From Yponomeuta sedellus (lineage: Eukaryota; Arthropoda; Insecta; Lepidoptera; Yponomeutidae): a DNA stretch of 64,000 nt. The translations under genes were made by a program, and so were the position numbers. Location of the stretch: contig OW203744.1 of assembly GCA_934045075.1 (NCBI GenBank), forward strand, positions 3,993,501-4,057,500, in the 5' to 3' direction. Each line of letters begins with the position of its first letter. Within the stretch, counting starts at the first letter, position 1. This document shows, piece by piece, positions 2,740 through 61,677 of the stretch. Under the pieces are notes generated by a model. It searched no databases, was not told where the DNA came from, and saw only the letters and a program-made list of their open reading frames with translations.

Positions 2740-3165
2740 GCGTATATTTATAGGATAGATAGATAGAGAACACTTTATGCACAACCAGAAAAAAGAATAC
2801 AACCGTGATTTCTTAAATTAGATTTATTACACTATTTTTATTTTTAATGCACTAACCCGTGCTAAGGAACAAATTTAAAAACCTATTTAGAGGCTAAAAT
2901 TTTTTTAAAGAGGTTCGAAATTTCACTGATGCCGTGAGTCGCCCATTGGCTCAATTGGTAGAGCGCTGGTACGGATAGCCAGAGGTTGCGGGTTCGAATC
3001 CCGGCATGGGTGAAATTTTTAGCCTCTAAATAGGTTTTTAAATTAGATTTATTGTAATGTTATACAATAGGCGGTCTTATCGCTAAGAGCGATCTCTTCC
3101 AGACAACCTTTGAATGGAGTGGATTGCATGAAGAATATAGGAGACATCTTACAGAGATAAATAAA
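2740..3165 (-). mobile_element. LINE 3' tail split by a tRNA-hairpin element
   Basis: GATAGATAGATAGAGAACACTTT followed by CAACC..GAATACAACCGTGATTTCTTAAATTAGATTTATT lies left of the insertion. GTAATGTTATACAATAGGCGGTCTTATCGCTAAGAGCGATC lies right of it. The same sequence without the insertion is found in the opposite orientation at 14085-14190, which serves as an empty-site reference. It looks like a non-LTR 3' UTR with an (ATCT)n end. Confidence 0.55.
2829..3037 (-). mobile_element. tRNA-hairpin element with perfect 16-bp target duplication
   Basis: Begins ACACTATTTTTATTTTTAATGCAC (the complement of the element tail) and ends in the complete plus-sense tRNA-like unit plus TTTTTAGCCTCTAAATAGG. 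TTAAATTAGATTTATT is repeated exactly at 2813-2828 and 3038-3053. The A box (TTGGCTCAATTGG) and B box (GGTTCGAATCC) are intact, but a T5 run follows the tRNA-like part at once. Confidence 0.9.
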
Positions 3166-5992: not shown

Positions 5993-6189
5993 GTGCGGTC
6001 AGCTAGTTAGTAATATAAAATTTTGTAAAATTTTAAAACTCTACAAATTCCAATGTTATTTAATGGAACATTTAATTTCATTATAGAACAAGTGTTTGAA
6101 TATTGATTTATTACTGTATGATCAATTATGTAAGAATATAAATTATTTGATTTAATGCATGACTTAGAATTGATTGAATTTTTTTTTTT

Positions 6190-6348
6190 TAAACCTATTT
6201 AGAGGCTAAAAATTCCACCCATGCCGAGATTCGAACCTGCGACCTCTGGCTATCCGTGCCAGCGCTCTTTACTGAGCTAATGGGCGACTCACCGGCTCAT
6301 CAGTGAAATTTCAAACCTCTTTACAATATTCTCTGTATTACGAATTAT
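6190..6348 (-). mobile_element. tRNA-hairpin element, truncated
   Basis: AAACCTATTTAGAGGCTAAAAATTCCACCC is followed by the complement of the tRNA-like unit (mutated T-arm GAGATTCGAACCTGC) and the middle block up to CTCTGTATTACG. The second arm and the tail are absent. No target duplication was found. Confidence 0.7.
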
Positions 6349-10305: not shown

Positions 10306-10410
10306 AGACCTATTTATATTTAGGGGCTAAAAATTCCACCCATGCCGGACTCGAACCCGCGACCTCTGGCTAACCGTGCCAGCGCTCTCCCAACTGAGCT
10401 AATAGGAGAT
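10306..10410 (-). mobile_element. tRNA-hairpin element fragment
   Basis: GACCTATTTATATTTAGGGGCTAAAAATTCCACCC followed by the complement of the tRNA-like unit to CAACTGAGCTAATAGGAG, where it stops. The middle block and second arm are missing. Confidence 0.65.
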
Positions 10411-10794
10411 CCTCCATACACAGAAAATACCCTGTAGGTAGATGCGTATATACCCAGTCAAAATAGTTAAATACAGTTTCGCCTGTGGCCACATCCGGGC
10501 AAAATTGATTAGCAACTCAAACAAATTGATCAGACCCCGGAAATCGGGCCGGACAGATAATTGACACTAGGCTAGACAAGGGTCTTGACCGCACAGCCGA
10601 ATAATAGATTTATAAGTGGACACCGAAGTACGGAGACTTAAGAGATTTTTGCATTTTTGTACGATTATTGGTTCAATTTAAAAAACCTTCATGTAAATAC
10701 CTATATCTTAAATAGCGACGCACCTCACCGAGGTAGCTGTGGGATTTTAAGGTTATCCCGAAATGGTTGAACTGTCATCTCCTTTTGGTCTGCA

Positions 10795-11841: not shown

Positions 11842-12291
11842 AACTTTATTCTGGTTTGAACCAGAATACGCTATTCTATAATATAAAAATGAATGCTTGA
11901 TGTGTTGGACTCACGGAACTTTATTCTGGTTTGAACCAGAATACGCTATTCTATAATATAAAAATGAATGCTTGATGTGTTGGACTCACGGAACTTTATT
12001 CTGGTTTGAATCAGAATACGCTATTCTATAATATAAAAATGAATGCTTGATGTGTTGGACTCACGGAACTTTATTCTGGTTTGAACCAGAATACGCTATT
12101 CTATAATATAAAAATGAATGCTTGATGTGTTGGACTCACGGAACTTTATTCTGGTTTCAACCAGAATACGCTATTCTATAATATATAAATGAATACTTGA
12201 TGTGTTGGACTCACGGAACCTTATTCTGGTTTGAACCAGAATACGCCATTCTATAATATACAAATGAATGCTTGATGTGTTGGACTCACGG
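11842..12291 (+). repeat. 75-bp tandem repeat, six units
   Basis: CTATTCTATA recurs at 11871, 11946, 12021, 12096, 12171 and 12246, an exact 75-base period. Each unit holds TTCTGGTTTGAACCAGAATACG (itself partly palindromic), the Helitron-like TCTATAATAT start and GATGTGTTGGACTCACGGAA. Units differ by only a few substitutions. Confidence 0.9.
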
Positions 12292-12473
12292 ATGTCATTG
12301 ATATCCGTGGTTGGACTACATAGTACTGAAGAAAAAGAATGTGTTGGTAAGCGCAAATCTCGAGAGCAGCTGCACCGATTCTTTTTTAAGAATGTTCCTT
12401 GAAGTACGAGGATAGTTATTACAGAAAAAAAGAATCGACTGTTAGGCGGTATGAAGTTCGCTGGGTCAGCTAG
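11842..12473 (+). mobile_element. Helitron-like element with iterated 5' terminus
   Basis: The right part (GTGTTGGTAAGCGCAAATCTCGAGAG..CTTGAAGTACGAGG..GCTGGGTCAGCTAG) matches the short Helitron at 56746-56927. It ends CTAG followed by T, as canonical Helitrons do. The left part is a tandem array whose unit contains the 5'-terminal TCTATAATATAAAAATGAAT of that family. No Rep/helicase gene is present, so it is non-autonomous. Confidence 0.7.
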
Positions 12474-13868: not shown

Positions 13869-14084
13869 CAAAAATAACAATCAACTATCATCATTTAGTA
13901 ACAAAATTAAATTGTTATTCTAGTCTTATGTTTCGAAAGTATCTTGTGTACTTCAAAAAGTTATCGCAATTTTAAAAGCGTAATACTTAATTTTGCAGGC
14001 CAGTGTAAATAGACATTTACCAAAAAGAATATATTTACAGTGTTTCTATTTAGGCGATTCATACGTAGTTATTAGGTTGCCTGT

Positions 14085-14190
14085 AAGAAATCACTCTTAG
14101 CGATAAGACCTCCAATTGTATAACATAACTTAGATTTAAGAAATCATGGTTGTATTCTTTTTTATGGTTATGCAATAAAGTGTTCTCTAT
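14085..14190 (+). mobile_element. LINE 3' tail with (ATCT)n end
   Basis: AGAAATCACTCTTAGCGATAAGACC, CAATTGTATAACATAACTTAG, GATTTAAGAAATCATGGTTG, AATAAAGTGTTCTCTATCTATC. This is the uninterrupted version of the sequence that is split at 2740-3165; a related tail is at 60345. Confidence 0.6.
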
Positions 14191-14194
14191 CTAT

Positions 14195-14395
14195 CTACGA
14201 CGACCTCTGTGGCGCAGCAGTAGTGCATCTGCCTACCACGGAAGAGGTCCCGGGTTCGAACCCCAGCTGGGGACAGTAAAAAAGCCCCAGGTCTTAGATG
14301 TTTACATGTTTGTGATGTCGTTGTTGCTGGTTCCCACGACACAGGGTATCCTAATGTGGGGCCAGAAGCAATGTATGTGCTTGTATGTAAATGTT
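14195..14395 (+). mobile_element. tRNA-headed SINE, nearly full length
   Basis: The head GACCTCTGTGGCGCAGCAGTAGTGC..GGGTTCGAACCCCAGCTGGGGAC has pol III A- and B-box-like elements. A short A run and a body follow (GATGTTTACATGTTTGTGATG, CACAGGGTATCCTAATGTGGGGCCAG). It inserted next to a LINE tail. Open frames through it are not genes. Confidence 0.75.
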
Positions 14396-14975: not shown

Positions 14976-15039
14976 CAGTGAAAACAATTTATTTGAACAC
15001 AATAATAAAGGTACAGTTTATAGGGTCGTTATTATTTTT

Positions 15040-15187
15040 AAAAACCTATTTAGAGGCTAAAAATGCCACCCATGCCGGGATTCGAACCCGGGGCCTCTGG
15101 CTATCCGTGCCAGCGCGCTTTTTAACTGAGCTAATGGGCGAGTCGTCCTTGGGTAAAATTTTTAGACTCTAAATAGGTTTTTAAAAT
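15040..15187 (-). mobile_element. tRNA-hairpin element, short form
   Basis: AAAAACCTATTTAGAGGCTAAAAATG, the complement of the tRNA-like unit to TGAGCTAATGGGCGAG, then directly the inverted end TTTTTAGACTCTAAATAGGTTTTTAAA. The middle block and second tRNA arm are missing. Confidence 0.75.
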
Positions 15188-15357
15188 TATCCTTAGCACG
15201 CACTTTTTTTACAACATTTGTATTTCTTACCATAGCTGAAGATCTCCACACTAGGCTTAGCCTGGAATGTGGAGATCGCAAGACGAATTGCTATACAATA
15301 TTGTGCGGATTTCAGGTAGGTACAGTATCCAGCTGTGTATGAGTGAGATATAATAAT

Positions 15358-18125: not shown

Positions 18126-18147
18126 TGAGATGAATTCGATTCAAAGA

Positions 18148-18203
18148 TAGATAGAGAACACTTTGTTACACAACCAGAAAAATATTACAACCATGATTTA
18201 AGA
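18148..18203 (-). mobile_element. LINE 3' tail fragment
   Basis: GATAGATAGAGAACACTTTG, CACAACCAGAAAAATATTACAACCATGATTTAAGAGG; same family as 14085 and 2740. Confidence 0.5.
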
Positions 18204-19858: not shown

Positions 19859-20001
19859 ATCTTTACTTTTTTTTAATTCGTGTACTCTGGTGTACAATAA
19901 GAAATATACTTATGCTATTCTTGTACATGTCAACTCTACATATAGATTTGTTCGCTGTTTTGAAAGTTATAATTTCTGTATGTTTAAGTATTACTTTACT
20001 T

Positions 20002-20138
20002 AAAAACCTATTTAGAGGCTAAAAATTTCACCCATGCCGGGATTCGAACCCACTCGAACGCGCATTCAAACAAATTTAAATAGGTTTTTAAATTTGTTCC
20101 TTAGCACGGGTTAGTGCATTAAAAATAAAAATTGTATA
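20002..20138 (+). mobile_element. tRNA-hairpin element, short form with 12-bp target duplication
   Basis: AAAAACCTATTTAGAGGC..GGGATTCGAACCCA, then an abrupt junction to AAATAGGTTTTTAAATTTG and the tail hairpin GCACGGGTTAGTGC plus ATTAAAAATAAAAATTGT. ATTACTTTACTT is repeated exactly at 19990-20001 and 20139-20150. Confidence 0.85.
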
Positions 20139-20265
20139 ATTACTTTACTTGTTTATTTTTTTTCTGTAATTTGCCTTATTGTTCAATATCAAAGTCAATA
20201 ACGATCATCATAACAGATTTTTTTTTATTAAAGTGAAATTTATTCATTGTATACAAAATTATATT

Positions 20266-20530
20266 CTTTTTTTTAATGCACTAACCCGTGCTAAGGAAAA
20301 TTTTAAAAACCTATTTAGAGGCTAAAAATACAGATCTGAATCTGTACGTAATACATAGAATATCTGAATCTGTACGTAATACAGAGAATATTGTAAGTTG
20401 AGGTTCGAAATTTTACTGATGCCGGTGAGTCGCCCATTAGCTCAGTTGGAAAGAGCGCTGGCACGGATAGCCAGAGGTCGCGGGTTCGAATCCCGGCATG
20501 GGTGGAATTTTTAGCCTCTAAATAGGTTTT
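20266..20530 (-). mobile_element. tRNA-hairpin element
   Basis: Tail complement (TTTTAATGCACTAACCCGTGC) and first arm, a small tandem duplication (ATCTGAATCTGTACGTAATAC twice), then a complete plus-sense tRNA-like unit with perfect A box (TTAGCTCAGTTGG) and B box (GGTTCGAATCC). No target duplication was resolved. Confidence 0.8.
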
Positions 20531-21375
20531 TTAAATTCTATAAAAAATGTCAATTTAAATGTCAACACACACACACGCCAAAGTCATTTTTTTTTAGTAC
20601 TTACTTGTTGAAAGTTTGATTCATACGTTTGTGTTGGATTTATTGGGTTCGCGTAACTATTCACCTTTTTTGAACTAAAACTCTACAATTATTCACCTTG
20701 TTATCTAAATTCTAGTTATATTAAAAACGTGAAAGTTTTTAAGATTGGGTGAAGAAGAAAGAAGACAAACATTTATTTAACGCCACATAGACATACAAAA
20801 TTTGACAGAAATGAAGAAAAAAAAAGCAGGAGTAAAACAAAAGCAGAAGAAAAGCGGAACTACAGATGAATGAGATGAACATAAATTCCTACGCTACACA
20901 GTATGTCCATGCAGCGGAAAAAAGGCCTCATGCTCAGTATAAGCTGAGGGTTTGCACCCACAACACTGATTTTCAGCAAGGGCCTTTGATTTTCAGCAAG
21001 GGCCTTTGGATGAAGGGTGGATGGATGTTAGTTACTCTTTCACGTAAAAACTACCGAATGGTTGCAAAAGCATGTATGCATTGTACATTTGCATATAGTT
21101 CGGTCTCTGCTAATCAACGTAAGGGACTAGCTGATTGTTGCCCAGGGTCCGCCAGACATACGAGCTCCTCTAACTAGAGCGTACCCTGAGCGCGTACCCA
21201 GCATCAAATCTTGAGTGACACCAATCGTGTTACTGTCAAATCTCACACTAATTGCTGTCACAAACGTCAGGGCTCCAGCAGGATTTGGTGGGCATAATCC
21301 GATTTCCGATACCGACTTGATGTCCCGACGCATTTCGTACCGCCACAGAACCCATTTTTACGATCAAATATAATA

Positions 21376-21785
21376 AAAGATCTTAACACATAAGATCTTT
21401 TATCTTTTTTAAAAGATAAAAAAGATAAAAGATCTTATGTAAAAACCTATTTAGATGCTAGAAATTTCACCCATGCCGGGATTCGAACCCGCAACCTCTG
21501 GCTATCCGTGCCAGCGCTCTACCAATTGAGACAATGGGCGACTCACCGGCATCAGTGAAATTTCGAACCTCTTTACACTATTCTCTGTATTACGTACAGG
21601 CAGCGACATCTAGCTTAAGCAAATTGCATCACTTACAGCCCCGACTACCTACTTTGTCCTTAGCACAGGTTAGTGCATTAAAAATAAAGAATAAGGAATA
21701 TTTATTGTGAGCATAGACATGGGTTACACCTTTAGCAGTAACAGTATTATGTGTTGACACATAAGATCTTTTATCTTTTTTTATC
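21376..21785. repeat. Split inverted repeat around a tRNA-hairpin element
   Basis: ACACATAAGATCTTTTATCTTTTTT at about 21390 is followed by its complement to 21441 and recurs in direct orientation at about 21757. Between them, 21440-21690 is a tRNA-hairpin copy that ends TTAGTGCATTAAAAATAAAG. Confidence 0.6.
21440..21690 (-). mobile_element. tRNA-hairpin element
   Basis: First arm (AAAAACCTATTTAGATGC), complement of the tRNA-like unit, middle block through CAGCCCCGACTACCTACTTTG, then the tail TTAGCACAGGTTAGTGCATTAAAAATAAA without a second tRNA arm. Confidence 0.75.
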
Positions 21786-21984
21786 CTGAAACGTCGAGGT
21801 AAAATAGCAATAAATTACAACGCGATTAAGCCCCGAAAATATTCTAACTATATTATCATATTTAGCTGTCTTTCTCGCTACACTGTATTTGTAAGTTTAC
21901 ACTTGTGATGCGCCTTCTGATTCCTATGTTACTGTTATCATATTGTGATATTAGTGTTCTATAAAATAAAATAAATAATTAACA

Positions 21985-23113
21985 AATTTAAAAACCTATT
22001 TAGAGGCTAAAAATTTCACCCATGCCGGGATTCGAACCCGCAACCTCTGGCTATCCGTACCAGCGCTCTACCAATTGAGCCAATGGGCGACTCACGGCAT
22101 CAGTGAAATTTCGAACCTCTTTACAATATTCTCTGTATTACGTACAGGCAGCGACATCTGACTTAAGCAAATTGCATTACTTACAGCCCCGACTACCTAC
22201 TTTGCAGTTAGGTTTAACATCGGAACGATATCACTGTACCCACATGATTACACTATTTTTAATGCACTAACCCGTGCTAAGGAACAAATTTAAAAACCTA
22301 TTTAGAGGCTAAAAATTTCACCCATGCCGGGATTCGAACCCGCAACCTCTGGCTATCCATACCAGCGCTCTACCAATTGAGCCAAGGGCGACTCACGGCA
22401 TCAGTAAAATTTCGAACCTCTTTACAATATTCTCTGTATTACGTACAGGCAGCGACATCTGACTTAAGCAAATTGCATTACTTACAGCCCCGACTACCTA
22501 CTTTGCAGTTAGGTTTAACATCGGAACGATATCACTGTACCCACATGATTACACTATTTTTAATGCACTAACCCGTGCTAAGGAACAAATTTAAAAACCT
22601 ATTTAGAGGCTAAAAATTTCACCCATGCCGGGATTCGAACCCGCAACCTCTGGCTATCCGTACCAGCGCTCTACCAATTGAGCCAATGGGCGACTCACGG
22701 CATCAGTGAAATTTCGAACCTCTTTACAATATTCTCTGTATTACGTACAGGCAGCGACATCTGACTTAAGCAAATTGCATTACTTACGGCCCCGACCACC
22801 TACTTTGCAGTTAGGTTTAACATCGGAACGATATCACTGTACCCACATGATTACACTATTTTTAATGCACTAACCCGTGCTAAGGAACAAATTTAAAAAC
22901 ATATCTAAGCTGCCTGTACGTAATACAGAGAATATTGTAAAGAGGTTCGAAATTTCACTGATGCCGTGAGTCGCCCATTGGCTCAATTGGTAGAGCGCTG
23001 GTACGGATAGCCAGAGGTTGCGGGTTCGAATCCCGGCATGGGTGAAATTTTTAGCCTCTAAATAGGTTTTTAAATTTGTTCCTTAGCACGGGTTAGTGCA
23101 TTAAAAATAGTGT
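21985..23113 (+). mobile_element. 1.13-kb tRNA-hairpin array with 12-bp target duplication
   Basis: Three head-to-tail units of about 305 bases are each built of arm, tRNA-like complement, middle block, CAGCCCCGACTACC, GTACCCACATGATTACAC and tail complement. They are followed by one inverted tRNA unit and the A-rich tail ..ATTAAAAATAGTGT. AAATAATTAACA is repeated exactly at 21973-21984 and 23114-23125, so the whole array lies within one target duplication. Units differ by only a few substitutions. Confidence 0.9.
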
Positions 23114-23529
23114 AAATAATTAACAGTTGCCAGCCTAAATCTTGGGAACAAAAGTTTATGTTTATTTCTATTATTTACATTGTGATGGCTACCTACGGTT
23201 TTAATGTTACTGTTATTTTACCTAACGTGCAAGATATTGTTATAAGTATATTTACTGATTAAAAACTGTCAGGATGTTAGTTTCTTTGAAAAAAACTCTT
23301 AACTCTCCTTACTGACTGGCTTATAAATTAATCTGATCGGCCTCTTCTGCCAGACGATGATGGCCTCAATGTCTACTGTCGGACCCTACAGTACCTAGTG
23401 CGCAGTGGGACAAAATACTTTGAAAATAAGCAAGCATAACAGTTGTGACTTCAGTTGCTTTCTGGCTTCTTATGACTACTTATACAACAAAACTAAATAT
23501 ATTATGTGCATTTTTTTTCTATATGATAA

Positions 23530-24337: not shown

Positions 24338-24769
24338 GTAAGTAAATGAAAATAAAATAAAAAATAAAACGCCTTTATTGTAAAGGCCAATGAGACGAGA
24401 TAAAGAATGTAAACAAAGTTTCAGGGGTCCTAAACATTTTTATTTGAATAAATTATAGTTATACAAATTTCGGATTCCCTATTCTAATCGCTTTCGTTTG
24501 TATTAGTCAAACATGATTCACCGGAAGAGTACGAATTATCCGAAACTATCCATAGAATTATCAATCAGGCAACCATAATACAAATACAAAATGTTTTATT
24601 TAAAAGAAAAAGATTACAAACATGTTTTACGTTGGTTACCACACTACGTAGATGTACGAGTACCTAAGTCTGTGCGGTGGTAATCAGAGGAAGTCTTAAC
24701 ATTAAACTTTTATTTTATTGAAAATATTGGTAATCTCTTTTTTTTATAAAACTAAATCATAATTATACT

Positions 24770-24967
24770 CTTTTTTTAATGCACTAACCCGTGCTAAGGA
24801 CAATTTTAAAAACCCATGCAGAGGCCAAAAATTCCACCCATGCCGGGATTCGAACCCGTGACCTCTGACTATCCGTGCCAGCGATCTTTCCAACTGAGCT
24901 AATAGGTGACTCACCGGCATCAGTGAAATTTCGAACCTCTTTACAATATTCTCTGTATTACGTACAT
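24770..24967 (-). mobile_element. tRNA-hairpin element, one-armed
   Basis: Tail complement, first arm and tRNA-like complement, then the middle block to TCTGTATTACGTAC, where it ends. No second arm and no clear target duplication. Confidence 0.7.
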
Positions 24968-25654
24968 AATGTTTTAAATATCTACTTTCCCTTAATATCG
25001 TTAAATCTTTGATTATTTGATACTGTCGTCACGCCTATAGTGATGTGACAGTGGACGGGTCATAGCAGGGTAGACTAGCTCCACCTAGGCTCCCCCGACT
25101 GTCCCCAGACTAGGTCTAGAGTCGGGACCGCGAATCGGCAAACGTAGCGTGTCGACTTGAAGCAGCAAAGAAAAATTAAATTGCCATGTTCATGCAATTG
25201 TCATTGTACCACAATGCGTTAGTAGAATCTAGGCTCAGGTGAAGCGAAGACAATCGCAAGGCGTTTTATCTAAAAATACAGATTATCGTATAGTATGAAT
25301 GGAATCGAATTAGCTTTATATTTGAAAATAACGGTTTCTTCTCAATAAATCTATGTCAACTTTCTCTTGCCTAGTGGTTGCACTTAACAAATTGAAATAC
25401 AAAAAGTAATTGATTAGTTTTTTAATTAACCTGTTATTATGTATCGGTTAAAAGAGATATTTTACAACCAACTGCTTTTCATAGATAAAAAGATGAATCA
25501 TTTATTTGAATTTTCACACACACAGTTTTCTAGGAACCGGTTTAAATCACTAATCTAAATCGCCCTCTTGATAGCCAACTAGTTGTAGTGACTAAAATAC
25601 TTGGACTTGATTTATTATTTGGGATATTCGGTGAGTGACCAGAAATATGGCTGT

Positions 25655-35478: not shown

Positions 35479-36001
35479 CGATTTCATGCGAAAATATTCA
35501 GGCTAAACAGAAATCTTCTTGTCAAATGCCTAATAAATTTCACTTTCGGTGAAGCCTGAAAAGTTGAACGTGGCAGTGTGTCCACACATTAGAGTGGTAG
35601 GGAGTTCGAATCCCGGCATGGTAGAGTTACATTTTTTTTTAAAAGAATAAAATACACACCATAATAATACCTCCCATCCGCCGAAGGTTTATCTGTGGAT
35701 TGGGTTTTTTATGTTACGTATATTTGTGAATTTATAGTAGCAAGCAATACCACTTCCTAAGTGTGGAAAAAAACACAGTGAAAAAACCCGATTCACCTAT
35801 TTTAGTGCTTGAAATCGCACATCTGCAGTGGGCAAATTATCTGGTGTGTGCATTCTTGAGTTTTTCATATTCTCATCACAAACTTGAAAAAACACCCAGT
35901 TTTATTTAATTTGAAAGAAAGAAAGAAAACATTTATTTAAATTGCCACGAATGCACAACCATAAAAAATACACAGTAATGGGGAAGATGAACATCAATTA
36001 G

Positions 36002-36040
36002 GAATTTAAAAACCTATTTAGAGGCTAAAAAATTTCATTT
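36002..36040 (-). mobile_element. tRNA-hairpin element, first arm only
   Basis: AATTTAAAAACCTATTTAGAGGCTAAAAAATTTCA with nothing further of the element. Confidence 0.55.
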
Positions 36041-41233: not shown

Positions 41234-41990
41234 CAGCGGATACCTGTGTTTATCGCTTACCGTGATCCTGACAAACCTATTTCGCTTCATCAGCTTCAAT
41301 AGTCACTTTATGCGTGCACGCTGGTTTCGGGTACTTTATATCTTGTCTTTGACTGATATCTCCTATTTGGTCGACGTGAGAATGCCTGGGAATTCCTAGA
41401 AACCTATTTAAAAGTAATTCCGTAAATTTGGTGGTTCAATATCCAACAGTCGCTGCAAGCGTGCACGCTGGTTTCGGGTACTTTATATCTTGTCTTTGAC
41501 TGATATCCCCTATTTAGTCGACGTGAGAATGCCTGGGAATTCCTAGAAACCTATTTAAAAGTAATTCCGTAAATTTGGTGGTTCAATATCCAACAGTCGC
41601 TGCAAGCGTGCACGCTGGTTTCGGGTACTTTATATCTTGTCTTTGACTGATATCCCCTATTTGGTCGACGTGAGAATGCCTGGGAATTCCTAGAAACCTA
41701 TTTAAAAGTAATTCCGTAAATTTGGTGGTTCAATATCCAACAGTCGCTGCAAGCGTGCACGCTGGTTTCGGGTACTTTATATCTTGTCTTTTACTGATAT
41801 CCCCTATTTGGTCGACGTGAGAATGCCTGGGAATTCCTAGAAAACTATTTAAAAGTAATTCAGTAAATTTGGTGGATCAATATTCAACAGTCGCTGCAAG
41901 CGTGCACGCTGGTTTCGTGTACTTTAAATCTTGTCTTTCACTAATCAGAGTATCCCCTAATTGGTCGACATAAGAGCGCTTCAGATGTCC
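41234..41990. repeat. 147-bp tandem repeat built on LINE-like sequence
   Basis: AATGCCTGGGAATTCC recurs at 41381, 41528, 41675 and 41822, an exact 147-base period, with degraded units at both edges. Each unit includes GCGTGCACGCTGGTTTCGGGTACTTTATATC and CCCCTATTTGGTCGACGTGAG, recognisable as diverged LINE 3' coding sequence (compare 40930-40990). It also has a unique AACCTATTTAAAAGTAATTCCGTAAATTTGGTGG segment. Confidence 0.9.
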
Positions 41991-45261: not shown

Positions 45262-45418
45262 TGTAGTATAATAAGGGCAAGGACGTCACAAACATGAAAA
45301 TACACCCAGACTGAGGCCACTTGTATAAATGTACGGCAGCCCCAGTAGGAATTGAACCCACGACCTCTGTCTCGGTACCCAAGCGCCTTAACCAACGAGG
45401 CAACCACGACAGGACATA
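45262..45418 (-). mobile_element. tRNA-headed SINE
   Basis: On the minus strand: CCTGTCGTGGTTGCCTCGTTGGTTAAGGCGC (A-box-like), GTGGGTTCAATTCC (B-box-like), then TTCATGTTTGTGACG. It lies about 110 bases upstream of KH exon 2. Confidence 0.65.
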
Positions 45419-49555: not shown

Positions 49556-49789
49556 TTCTTACTTTAAAATATTAATACCTCTAACTACCTACCTACTAAC
49601 TAACTAAGTAACTACCTACATATATAGAATATAATTTAATATAATCACTTGTATGTATAATGTTCCTTGGCATTTTGGGCACTTTTACTTTGTTTTGCTT
49701 TGTAAAATTGATTTCTAATATTGAGCAACCTCTGGCAGCATTATTATCTTATATGAAAGATTTTCAGCCTCCAGAACAAGAACACTTTT

Positions 49790-50003
49790 AAAAACCTATT
49801 TAGAGGCTAAAAATTTCACCCATGCCGGGATTCGAACCCGCAACCTCTGGCTATCCGTACCAGCGCTCTACCAATTGAGCGCTGGTACGGATAGCCAGAG
49901 GTTGCGGGTTCGAATCCCGGCATGGGTGAAATTTTTAGCCTCTAAATAGGTTTTTAAATTTGTTCCTTAGCACGGGTTAGTGCATTAAAAATAAAAATAG
50001 TGT
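49790..50003 (+). mobile_element. tRNA-hairpin element, cleanest hairpin, 12-bp target duplication
   Basis: About 80 bases of arm plus partial tRNA-like sequence are followed by the complement with almost no spacer (CTACCAATTGAGCGCTGG turn). Then come the single-stranded tail AAATTTGTTCCTTAGCACGG and ATTAAAAATAAAAATAGTGT. AAGAACACTTTT is repeated exactly at 49778-49789 and 50004-50015. Reference copy for the element ends. Confidence 0.92.
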
Positions 50004-50477
50004 AAGAACACTTTTGTGTACTTTTTTACTATGAAATAAACAGTTAAATTTACTTACATAACATTGATAAATACAGGCCCAAATATAGTACTTATTTTAC
50101 ACATTGCCGGTGGATCTATAAAATACCTAGGAATTGTATACATTACCTAGGTAAAGTACCTATATAATGGAAAATAGTATTCATAATATTTAAAACATTG
50201 CCTAGACGCCTTAGGTATTCTATACATTACCTAGGTATTGTATAGAATACCTAAACTGTACAGATTGCCGGTAACATATAGAACACTATGTATACACATA
50301 ATTATTTGCTCGACGTACGCACCAGGGCAATGCTAGAAGATTAGATGGTGAACTAACCACGGCCCAAGACTCTAACAAGCTAGTAGTGTGCAAAAACTGA
50401 CAAAGTCGGCCGCAGGATTTGATTTAGCTTTGGTACAATGAAACAGGGTCCTGTATTCGGAGAGATTATGTAACTGC

Positions 50478-50940
50478 GATTGCCGGTGAGTAGTCCATTA
50501 GCTCAGTTGGAAAGAGCGCTGGCACGGATAGCCAGAGGTCGCGGGTTCGAATCCCGGCATGGGTGGAATTTTTAGCCTCTAAATAGGTTTTAAAAATGTC
50601 CTTAGCACGGGTTAGTGCATTATAAATAATATAATCATGTGGGCACAGCGATATCATTCCGATGTAAATCCTAACTGCAAAGTAGGTACTCGGGGCTGCA
50701 AGTGATGCAAATTACTTCAGCCACATGTAATAGCCTGCCAGCCTGTACGTAATACAGAGAATATTGTAAAGAGTTTCGAAATTTCACTGATGCCGGTGAG
50801 TCGTCCATTAGCTCAGTTGGAAAGAGCGCTGGCACGGATAGCCAGAGATCGCGGGTTCGAATCCCGGCATGGGTGGAAGTTTTAGTCTCTAAATTGGTTT
50901 TTTTTTAAATGTCTTTAGCACGGGTTAGTGCATTAAAAAT
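50478..50940 (+). mobile_element. tRNA-hairpin family, head-to-tail dimer in tRNA-sense orientation
   Basis: Two tRNA-like units (50490-50570, 50798-50878) have perfect A (TTAGCTCAGTTGG) and B (GGTTCGAATCC) boxes. Each is followed by GGAATTTTTAGCCTCTAAATAGG or a variant and the GCACGGGTTAGTGCATTA tail. The link is the unit middle block. This is the only array without an inverted arm. Confidence 0.75.
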
Positions 50941-51029
50941 AATATAAACTGGGATTATTTATTTATATAATAGATACTCCTAACAGATGTTCAGTTAAAG
51001 TACATTATGATGTAAGCGCGGTAAGGTGA

Positions 51030-53924: not shown

Positions 53925-54050
53925 CATGAGAAATCTTAACAACTGTAAAAAACCTCAGCACGGGTTAGTGCAACAAAAAGAATATAATCTTAACAACTGT
54001 GACAAATATTTTTAGAACCTATCGCCTAGAACCTAGAATCCACAACCAAG
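53925..54050 (+). repeat. Dispersed repeat carrying a 39-bp tRNA-hairpin insertion
   Basis: AATCTTAACAACTGT..AATATTTTTAGAACCTA matches the second half of 5757 and 47815, interrupted at 53947-53985. Confidence 0.55.
53947..53985 (+). mobile_element. Minimal (39-bp) tRNA-hairpin element with 15-bp target duplication
   Basis: AAAAAACCT is fused to CAGCACGGGTTAGTGCA and an A-rich end. AATCTTAACAACTGT is repeated exactly at 53932-53946 and 53986-54000. Only the two extreme ends of the element remain, which defines the termini. Confidence 0.85.
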
Positions 54051-55430: not shown

Positions 55431-55532
55431 CATGGTTTACTATGACAATAGACATGACGAAAGATTTTTAAATCCTCTTCTATAATATAATATTCTTCCA
55501 TTTATTATTTACAAAAAAAAAAACATATATTT

Positions 55533-56039
55533 AAAAACCTATTTAGAGGCTAAAAATTTCACCCATGCCGGGATTCGAACCCGCAACCTCTGGCTATCCG
55601 TGCCAGCGGTCTACCAATTGAGCCAATGGGCGACTCACGGCATCAGTGAAATTTCGAACCTCTTTACACTATTCTCTGTATTACGTACAGGCAGCGACAT
55701 CTGACTTAAGCAAATTGCATTACTTACAGCCCCGACTACCTACTTTGCAGTTAGGTTTAACATCGGAACGATATCACTGTATCCACATGATTATACTATT
55801 TTTATTTTTAATGCACTAACCCGTGCCAAGGAACAAATTTAAAAACCTATTTAGAGGCTAAAAATTTTCACCCATGCCGGGATTCGAACCCGCAACCTCT
55901 GGCTATCCGTGCCAGCGCTCTACCAATTGAGCCAATGGGCGACTCACGGCATCAGTGAAATTTCTCTAAATAAGCCTCTAAATAGGTTTTTAAATTTGTT
56001 CCTTGGCACGGGTTAGTGCATTAAAAATAAAAATAGCAT
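55533..56039 (+). mobile_element. tRNA-hairpin array with 15-bp target duplication
   Basis: One full direct unit, a second arm with tRNA-like complement, then the terminal inverted arm TAAGCCTCTAAATAGG and tail TTAGTGCATTAAAAATAAAAATAG. AAAAAACATATATTT is repeated exactly at 55518-55532 and 56040-56054. Confidence 0.88.
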
Positions 56040-56373
56040 AAAAAACATATATTTCAGTAATAAACTAAAGTTTAACAAAGTTTAAGGCCATTCTTCTAAA
56101 ATTATCTTTATTTTGTGGGAAAACAGCTCGCAGTGTAATGGCGTCGAATCTGACGTCACGCGCAGGTAAACAAACGTCGTTATCAAGTAGTCACAACGTA
56201 GCATGGGTGTGAAGTTTACCAATGTTAACCTAAGCGTGACGTCACGCGTTGTGATGGGTATTTCGTATTTCAGTCATAATGGCTGAGAACAGTGCATTAT
56301 AATCTTTTACTTTAATGAATATAATATTGGTAATCTCTTTTTTCATAAATCTAAATCAGTGATTTAAATCCTT

Positions 56374-56652
56374 ATACTTTTTTTTATTTTTAATGCACTG
56401 ACCCGTGCTAAGGACAAATTTAAAAACCTATTTAGAGGCTAAAAATTTCACCCATGCCGGGATTCGAACCCGCAACCTCTGGCTATCCGTGCCAGCGCTC
56501 TTCCAATTGAGCCAATGGGCGACTCACCGGCATCAGTGAAATTTCGAACCTCTTTACACTATTCTCTGTATTACGTACAGGCAGCGACATCTGGCTTAAG
56601 CAAATTGCATCACTTACATGGATGAAATTTTTAGCCTCTAAATAGGTTTTTA
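56374..56652 (-). mobile_element. tRNA-hairpin element with 13-bp target duplication
   Basis: Tail complement, arm, tRNA-like complement, middle block to TGCATCACTTACAT, then GGATGAAATTTTTAGCCTCTAAATAGG. GATTTAAATCCTT is repeated exactly at 56361-56373 and 56653-56665. Confidence 0.88.
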
Positions 56653-56745
56653 GATTTAAATCCTTTTAATATACACTTTCCCCTAATATCGTTAAAGCAT
56701 TATACTATTTTTATTTTAATGCATTTTTACCATTTTTATGTACAA

Positions 56746-57868: not shown

Positions 57869-58248
57869 TGAATAATAATTTACAGAATTGAGAATAGGTA
57901 CAATTTTCGCCAACTTATAAAACTCGCGCCAACCGCCAACCAATGAATGTAAAAAAATCTTTCGCTCACAGACGACTCCAAACGTCATTTCACTGATGTT
58001 CTACGAGCATTATCTGTGAGCTTTTTATTTCACTCTCACATACATAAACTTGTATGATGTTGTCTTGCACTCCTGTAGCGATATAATATTTAAAAAACCC
58101 GTAAGAACTACATCACTAAAACATAATAGACAATATAGATGACTTTCTTAAGACAGTTCTTCTCTTAGCTCATGCTTAACTCCGGCTCCCCATCGAATGT
58201 GAATACGAACATTTCGGCGCTTTACTAAGTATGACTTTAGTTTACTTT

Positions 58249-59376
58249 ACACTATTTTTTTATTTTTAATGCACTAACCCGTGCTAAGGAACAAATTTAA
58301 AAACCTATTTAGAGGCTAAAAATTTCACCCATGCTGGGATTCGAACCCGCAACCTCTGGCTATCCGTACCAGCGCTCTACCAATTGAGCCAATGGGCGAC
58401 TCACGGCATCAGTGAAATTTCGAACCTCTTTACAATATTCTCTGTATTACGTACAGGCAGCGACATCTGACTTAAGCAAATTGCATTACTTACAGCCCCG
58501 ACTACCTACTTTGCAGTTAGGTTTAACATCGGAACGATATCACTGTACCCACATGATTACACTATTTTTTTATTTTTAATGCACTAACCCGTGCTAAGGA
58601 ACAAATTTAAAAACCTATTTAGAGGCTAAAAATTTTTCACCCATGCCGGGATTCGAACCCGCAACCTCTGGCTATCCGTACCAGCGCTCTACCAATTGAG
58701 CCAATGGGCGACTCACGGCATCAGTGAAATTTCGAACCTCTTTACAATATTCTCTGTATTACGTACAGGCAGCGACATCTGACTTAAGCAAATTGCATTA
58801 CTTACAGCCCCGACTACCTACTTTGCAGTTAGGTTTAACATCGGAACGATATCACTGTACCCACATGATTACACTATTTTTTTATTTTTAATGCACTAAC
58901 CCGTGCTAAGGAACAAATTTAAAAACCTATTTAGAGGCTAAAAATTTCACCCATGCCGGGATTCGAACCCGCAACCTCTGGCTATCCGTACCAGCGCTCT
59001 ACCAATTGAGCCAATGGGCGACTCACGGCATGGGTGAAATTTTTAGCCTCTAAATAGGTTTTTAAATTTGTTCCTTAGCACGGGTTAGTGCATTAAAAAT
59101 AAAAAAATAGTGTAATCATGTGGGTACAGTGATATCGTTCCGATGTTAAACCTAACTGCAAAGTAGGTAGTCGGGGCTGTAAGTAATGCAATTTGCTTAA
59201 GTCAGATGTCGCTGCCTGTACGTAATACAGAGAATATTGTAAAGAGGTTCGAAATTTCACTGATGCCGTGAGTCGCCCATTGGCTCAATTGGTAGAGCGC
59301 TGGTACGGATAGCCAGAGGTTGCGGGTTCGAATCCCGGCATGGGTGAAATTTTTAGCCTCTAAATAGGTTTTTAAA
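58249..59376 (-). mobile_element. 1.13-kb tRNA-hairpin array with 12-bp target duplication
   Basis: Two full direct units (about 313 bases), a short arm fused head-on to its own complement at CGACTCACGGCATGGGTG, then one full inverted unit. TTAGTTTACTTT is repeated exactly at 58237-58248 and 59377-59388. The repeats are nearly identical, so the array is young. It is nested in the Harbinger-like element. Confidence 0.9.
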
Positions 59377-59639
59377 TTAGTTTACTTTGCTAAGACTGCT
59401 CTAAGCATGAACTTGGGATCCGTCTCTGAATGTCAGCCTTAGTGGACTCGGACCGAGTACGCCATCCGAGTAAACTAAAGCTTCTGATTGGCTATTTTGG
59501 TGTTGTCACAAAAAACCGTCCAATCAGAAGCATTAGTTTACTCGGATGGCGCACTCGGTCCGAGCGTACTAAGACCGTGAAAGTTTGGCCTATGTCTCAA
59601 GTCAGATCTTTGTGTGTCTATGTTCCAAGTTCCATCGCA

Positions 59640-60097: not shown

Positions 60098-60478
60098 AAT
60101 AACATTTATGTACAGGCACATAAATTGCTCCTGGCCCCACACTAGGATACCCTGTGTCGTGGGAACCAGAAACAGCGATATCACAAACATGTAAACATCC
60201 AAGACCGGGGTTTTTTTTGTCCCCAGCCGGCGTTCGAACCCGAGACCTCTCAAATTGTAGACAGATGGGCTACCGTTGCGCAACAGAGGTCGTCTAATGT
60301 AACAATACAACCCCTATTTATCACAGTGCAACAAACGCATGAAATATGATTTATATGTATTGTATAGGAAGAGATCACTTTTAGTGATAAGGTCGCCGTC
60401 TGTACTCTTAGGTTAAGAAATACCTATCTGTGTAATTTCTATTATTATGTATAATAAAGTGTTCTCTATCTATCTATT
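60098..60478. mobile_element. tRNA-headed SINE (minus) followed by LINE 3' tail (plus)
   Basis: 60098-60296 is the first tRNA-SINE family (complement of GACCTCTGTTGCGCAACGG..GGGTTCGAACGCCGGC). 60345-60478 is AGGAAGAGATCACTTTTAGTGATAAGG..AATAAAGTGTTCTCTATCTATC, a LINE 3' UTR. Confidence 0.7.
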
Positions 60479-61097
60479 TCTGTATCAAACAGGTCTAAAT
60501 AATCGCGATTATATCCCTTTTAATATCTAACTACGTAAGAACATCGCACAAAATATTCCAAAACGTTCCCAAACTATTTAAATATTGAACTCCACTTCTT
60601 CCGACGAACGTCCACTTATCCTGGCCCGTAAAATTTATATTGAAGCCGCAACTATGGAGGCGTCGAAGCCGCTAAATCGTATCTGAAAGCTCTGATTCAC
60701 ACACGTACGAGAGGTACCTATATTTTATATCATTCCCGCGGACCGTGTTAAACATCTGAGGCTATTCTAAAAGATTTTTTTTTCTCAAATAACGCGAATG
60801 GGCTGTGTCCTGTGATTCGGGTTACAAAATGTGTAAAATAAATTTTGCGCCAAAAACATAAAGGGTTATTGATAGCAGTCAATGATGTCTGGAATAAACT
60901 CAGTATAATGCATGAGTTCTATGTTTTACAGTATTTATTTTATATCGTTTTTTAAAGAACTTGGTACATAAAAGAAAAGCGACTATGTCGTCCTAGTAAT
61001 GCTATAATATACAGTTATACTTGTGACAAGTAAGTCTCTATACATGACTAAAGCTGATTAAATATTTGTCCTAGCTTTTAAACCAATTTTATTATTA

Positions 61098-61663
61098 TAC
61101 TATTTTTATTTTTAATGCACTAACCCGTGCTAAGGAACAAATTTAAAAACCAAATAGAGGCTAAAAATTTTCACCCATGCCGGGATTCGAACCCGCAACC
61201 TCTGGCTATCCGTGCCAGCGCTCTACCAATTGAGCCAATGGGCGACTCACGGCATCAGTGAAATTTCGAACCTCTTTACACTATTCTCTGTATTACGTAC
61301 AGGCAGCGACATCTGACTTAAGCAAATTGCATTACTTACAGCCCCGACTACCTACTTTGCAGTTAGGTTTAACATCGGAACGATATCACTGTACCCACAT
61401 GATTATACTATTTTTATTTTTAATGCACTAACCCGTGCTAAGGAACAAATTTAAAAACCAAATAGAGGCTAAAAATTTTCACCCATGCCGGGATTCGAAC
61501 CCGGATTGATACGTAATACAGAGAATAGTGTAAAGAGGTTCGAAATTTCACTGAAGCCGTGAGTCGCCCATTGGCTCAATTGGTAGAGCGCTGGCACGGA
61601 TAGCCAGAGGTTGCGGGTTCGAATCCCGGCATGGGTGAAAATTTTTAGCCTCTAATTGGTTTT
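61098..61663 (-). mobile_element. tRNA-hairpin array with 14-bp target duplication
   Basis: Tail complement, full direct unit, a second arm broken after GGGATTCGAACCCGG, then an inverted unit ending TTTTTAGCCTCTAATTGG. CAATTTTATTATTA is repeated exactly at 61084-61097 and 61664-61677. Confidence 0.88.
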
Positions 61664-61677
61664 CAATTTTATTATTA

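Follow-up and report, generated by a model that had tools for sequence, protein, structure and literature searches.

What kind of mobile element leaves a nearly perfect hairpin, built around a tRNA-like sequence, between two copies of its target? The hairpin at positions 49790–50003 of the 64-kb stretch of Yponomeuta sedellus DNA that we analysed (the window) raises this question, and a preliminary description read it as an element that moves as a hairpin. The hairpin itself is real: two 79-nt arms pair without a mismatch around an 8-nt loop and are followed by a 48-nt tail with a mini-hairpin (49970–49983), and the fold (MFE −167.6 kcal/mol, z −25.45) is equaled by none of 200 shuffles. This copy, E12, is the neatest in a varied set. 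From left to right it comprises the target duplication AAGAACACTTTT (49778–49789), an antisense arm that runs from a site called a into the tRNA D-arm (49790–49880, minus strand), a sense arm that runs from the tRNA part to site a and overlaps the antisense arm by the four bases GAGC (49877–49955, plus strand), the tail from site a to a second site, b (49956–50003, plus strand), and the right target duplication (50004–50015).

BLAST and reading by eye place E12 among 18 insertions (E1–E18) of one repeat family within the window; weak BLAST matches at 14243–14271, 35593–35636, 45348–45403, 56704–56723 and 60216–60250 lie outside the 18. The mobile unit is a tandem repeat of about 310 nt (period 302–312) with three parts in the sense order A-B-C. 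Part A (109 nt as cut) consists of the tRNA part followed by GCCTCTAAATAGGTTTTT, part B is the tail (48 nt in E12) and part C is about 158 nt long; site a is the A/B boundary and B ends at site b. ARAGORN and Rfam call tRNAs in many family copies, which thus have the tRNA-like head with pol III boxes of a SINE, and the family contains partial units in tandem and also partial copies that are inverted, as Penelope-like elements (PLEs) do. The copies range from a 40-bp remnant (E14) to an insertion in which part A occurs five times, in full or in part (E17), and 13 of the 18 are arranged head-to-head.

We also note that the last ~30 nt of part C resemble the reverse complement of A 64–96 (about 79% identity; 59243–59275 and other C/A boundaries), so that the unit itself holds an inverted copy around its own tRNA, perhaps the fossil of an earlier head-to-head insertion. 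Exact 19–30 nt patterns, searched with A, B and C in viral contigs and with B and C in genome contigs, neither collection being one of insect genomes, gave a sole match, L001; it was rejected as an external relative, since its 25 matching bases lie in a contig with phage-like ORFs and are taken as chance. A tRNA-Gly-like sequence (90–162) and a tRNA-like fragment (35593–35636) occur outside the family, as do two tandem arrays (11842–12292 and 41312–41942; 75-bp and 147-bp units, 97% matches).

The outer ends of the insertions are of two kinds. End a, AAAAACC or GGTTTTT, lies before the tail, and end b lies after the tail, near TAGTGT. Each of the ten insertions flanked by duplications combines one a end with one b end (p about 0.001 at even odds), and in all ten the tail lies between the two sites and is present on one inverted end only, as in PLEs. 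The ends had been described as the same each time and as complementary in the manner of a foldback transposon; they are indeed fixed, but they are two different ends, one of each per insertion, which are not complements of one another, the tail being on one alone.

Besides E12, four of these ten have a on the left and b on the right (plus strand), namely E6 (19990–20150, 12-bp duplications), the multi-unit copies E9 (21973–23125, 12 bp) and E15 (55518–56054, 15 bp), and E14 (53932–54000, 15 bp), the shortest, whose antisense a arm of ~8 bases (by eye) is followed by the tail and yet lies exactly at the duplication. The other five have b on the left and a on the right (minus strand): E1 (1943–2250, duplications with one mismatch), E2 (2813–3053, 16 bp), E16 (56361–56665, 13 bp), and the multi-unit copies E17 (58237–59388, 12 bp) and E18 (61084–61677, 14 bp). 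Three more head-to-head copies are E5 (15036–15205, plus strand), with a on the left and a right end inside the tail, E7 (20255–20540, minus strand), with the b side on the left and a on the right, and E8 (21437–21700, plus strand), with a on the left and the tail on the right; E7 and E8 reach at least positions 44–47 of the 53-nt B query. E10 (24763–24985, minus strand), mostly antisense with b on the left and an a end of just 8 bases, may be a fourteenth. An a side alone is present in E3 (6184–6344, minus strand), a one-sided antisense copy of A and part of C with its a end on the left, in E11 (36003–36040, minus strand), a short antisense fragment, and less clearly in E4 (10310–10412, minus strand), an old antisense copy of A only. 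Finally, E13 (50472–50956, plus strand) is a sense-only tandem copy, A-B-C-A-B at 50482–50946, that ends at b and has a 10-bp duplication with one mismatch, by eye.

A direct repeat flanks ten of the 14 two-ended insertions and was matched by none of 182 mismatched flank pairs; the same test, run from the element ends, gave no clear repeat at E5, E7, E8 and E10. All ten repeats had been recorded in the preliminary description, and they were recovered where it placed them, nine exact and one (1943/2237) with one mismatch. Their length varies from 12 to 16 bp, and the duplicated strings, hand-normalised, are 84% AT compared with 60% for the window, an AT-rich target such as PLEs use. When the insertions are oriented with b on the right, the shared repeat starts with AA in seven of the ten, with TAA in E18 and with ATT in E1 and E6. 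Furthermore, E2 sits in another repeat, a second copy of which (14074–14197, minus strand) is without the insertion and forms a paralogous empty site, where the target is present once, diverged and 6 bases shorter; 18145–18198 was rejected as a second such site, as it matches the left flank only.

Two of the insertion sites have features of their own. E10 and E16 lie at near-identical positions in two copies of another repeat (left flanks 24703–24759 and 56300–56358, right flanks near 24977–25005 and 56668–56696), though they belong to different subfamilies, and this coincidence could have arisen by repeated insertion or by exchange. E8 is flanked by a 23-base exact inverted repeat (21418–21440 and 21759–21781), as if it lay within another foldback element.

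At end a the last target bases are the same as the unit bases just before the start point. This annealing amounts to 26 bases in ten insertions (mean 2.6; 1 in E14, 0 in E16 and E18), whereas mismatched pairs anneal by 0.77 bases each (n = 90), and a total of 26 was reached in 0 of 20000 random draws and in 1 of 20000 AT-rich draws. The flank test, the E2 empty site and the annealing at a together support target-primed reverse transcription with 12–16 bp duplications, as had been proposed for this locus. The antisense arms of E9 and E17 have bases past the T5 run at a that are not supplied by the target copy; thus the RNA continued beyond this run and a is an internal start, which contradicts an origin of end a in an RNA terminated there by pol III.

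The central joins show how the hairpins arise. The 13 head-to-head insertions have 13 distinct pairs of unit positions at the join, so each hairpin was created at insertion, and this, together with the sense-only tandem at 50482–50946, speaks against a hairpin that moves as such. As called by script, the arms overlap at the join in three of 13 (the 4 bases GAGC in E12, 2 in E16, and 24 in E17, which fall inside a longer within-unit similarity), abut in E8 and are separated by gaps of 2–40 bases in nine. For E5, E7 and E14 the gap is called too long, since the script halts at diverged or very short arms. The E7 join (20330–20395) contains a 28-bp near-duplication with near-palindromic filler.

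Opposite arms of one insertion are far more alike than arms of different insertions, with differences at 27 of 2121 positions (1565 of which come from E9 and E17, comparisons of <15 columns being dropped) versus 5325 of 60140; in seven insertions picked as young the values are 20 of 1966 within and 841 of 20882 between insertions. The least alike arms are those of E5 (4 of 33) and E15 (4 of 89). Private or subfamily variants are common to both arms in E18 and, at one B base, in E15; E9 has four copies of B, all of one form, and so has E17. In 11 of the 13 insertions (all but E8 and E14) the two arms cover some of the same unit positions, so the template was not one monomer RNA read once per end; RNA in the form of a multimer or a circle fits, as do sister RNAs, and the variants shared among the units and arms of an insertion point to the same templates. 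Assembly of the arrays by template jumping between monomer RNAs was considered and rejected, since the B/C boundary is constant, base changes aside, in E9, E13, E15, E17 and E18.

The anatomy of the copies establishes the two ends, the duplications, the distinct joins, the shared variants and one empty site. The best explanation, to which we give a probability of about 0.5, is a tRNA-bearing retroelement that is non-autonomous, with a PLE as its putative helper, and is copied from RNA at both cut strands of the target; double-ended priming by the target at two fixed positions of the RNA, taken as a component of its own, is very probable. One cut target 3′ end, often ending in TT, would prime at site b, and the other strand, cut 12–16 bp away, would prime at site a, 48 nt upstream of b. 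The two antisense cDNAs would then extend inward along a multimeric or circular RNA, or along sister RNAs from one source, and meet via chance microhomology or filler, and the product would be head-to-head copies, of which just one side bears the tail, with a 12–16 bp target duplication.

Among other explanations, the one that survives best, although we consider it unlikely, is a tRNA-derived SINE moved by a LINE with unusually frequent twin priming, whereby an internal stretch of the SINE RNA pairs with the second target end and one cDNA is joined to the other. The tRNA head and the 12–16 bp duplications resemble those of a SINE/LINE pair, and LINE-1 twin priming as reported in PMC2912911 also gives an inverted part, target duplications, annealing of the second end, and short overlaps or filler at the join; the mean of 2.6 bases at a, compared with 0.77 for mismatched pairs, is in keeping with the 2–5 bp microhomologies given there for about 70% of 5′-inverted L1 copies. 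However, internal priming in our family occurs at one fixed site, and arms that overlap in 11 of 13 insertions are not expected from a monomer RNA read once per end. The rate is also far above that reported for Alu and SVA: the same source counts 639 of 2068 L1 copies as 5′-inverted, but of Alu only 1 of 5554 and of SVA 4 of 477, and given this rarity, a SINE with 13 of 18 inverted by twin priming would be a clear exception.

It seems considerably less likely still that the hairpins form by self-priming, in which a folded-back cDNA or RNA, with the turn at the tRNA D-arm in the case of E12, is extended from its own end, so that the hairpin would arise ahead of integration or in its course. For head-to-head PLE copies, the authors of PMC3846280 favour such self-priming with an antisense template, and the E12 join at the D-stem GAGC/GCTC, the nearly palindromic filler of E7 and the high likeness of opposite arms agree with it. 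By itself, however, it explains neither the second outer end at a nor the target annealing there, and most joins have no such stem, nine of the 13 having a gap or filler by script (overstated in E5, E7 and E14). A foldback DNA transposon with a captured tRNA would have the long complementary arms, but is highly improbable, as the family has two unlike ends, duplications that range from 12 to 16 bp, different joins in 13 of 13 insertions and a sense-only copy, and not the constant inverted ends and constant duplication length of such transposons.

Reverse transcription from both cut strands, the preferred reading, has a precedent in PLEs. The preliminary description knew of no named family with this combination of features, which went too far, since inverted partial copies, a one-sided tail and target duplications are all described for PLEs in what PMC3846280 and PMC11167929 report. 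The PLE studied in PMC11167929 (PAc of Anolis) cuts and extends both strands at AT-rich targets, and its reverse transcription starts from two adjacent internal sites, the genomic tail being the stretch between them. In Pen2a of Adineta vaga (PMC3846280) the pLTRs are inverted, one of them carries a 31-bp tail, and duplications of 8–10 bp are absent in some copies. Judging from these accounts, our family shares with PLEs the partial tandem units, the head-to-head inverted partial copy, the AT-rich targets, the target duplications and the two internal starts of reverse transcription, as well as the tail on one inverted end (30–40 bp in PLEs, 48 here). It differs from them in carrying a tRNA, in always having one a and one b end, and in showing neither an ORF nor a hammerhead, the latter being common in pLTRs, though perhaps not universal. 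Its duplications of 12–16 bp are longer than those of 8–10 bp in the Adineta element. Moreover, the target anneals at a, whereas in the account of PMC11167929 the start site is the same on either strand and has no homology to the cut DNA.

We infer the enzyme, the order of cuts, the form of the RNA and the use of the promoter from this anatomy. The unit is presumably transcribed by RNA polymerase III from its tRNA boxes. For the helper we give even odds to an endonuclease-bearing PLE, a value that is lowered by the lack of a start-site difference between strands in the studied PLE; a Pfam search of 10 of the 240 window ORFs of at least 60 aa gave 0 families at E 0.01, and so neither a PLE nor a LINE gene. 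Taken as a whole, the more specific proposal of a SINE-like parasite of PLEs, with a tRNA-promoted unit of ~310 nt, a multimeric or circular RNA, and a helper that starts at two fixed RNA sites to extend the one and the other target strand, which would make head-to-head copies the normal outcome, falls somewhat short of even odds.

Several other short elements invite comparison. Animal retrozymes (PMC7761336) are presented as short tandem units (150–300 bp) without an ORF and as proposed users of PLE machinery, and are alike in this; they differ by their self-cleaving hammerhead, a source of circular RNA, and no such motif was found in our family (the other Rfam matches, e.g. mir-6131 with E 0.094, were far under gathering scores), and a retrozyme reading was rejected on that ground. 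The Helenus TRIMs (PMC10886601) have tRNA-like LTRs and so resemble our family in having a tRNA-like sequence in a repeated terminal unit, but the duplications cited for them are 4–5 bp and not 12–16 bp. The lepidopteran tRNA SINEs Metulj and PxSE (PMC4016481, PMC8010984) are likewise short, dense repeats with a tRNA-derived head; head-to-head insertions do not figure in the available descriptions of them. Non-autonomous PLEs are already known, as PMC6685494 speaks of “short, nonautonomous Penelope elements” for heliconiine butterflies, and we recognised no tRNA-promoted PLE among the matches listed in the open-access literature. A tRNA-bearing Penelope-type element would be new, though its kind is already known.

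With 18 insertions of a short family in 64 kb, one can follow base by base where copying starts, how the target anneals and how the arms meet, and the family may bear on how PLEs complete insertion and why inverted copies remain. If it is indeed a PLE parasite, it offers a dense natural record of two-site initiation, which has hitherto been seen in vitro for one PLE, and if a PLE is the helper, parasites of the pol III type extend beyond LINEs. It also carries a warning, in that foldback repeats listed in libraries may have formed on insertion instead of being DNA transposons.
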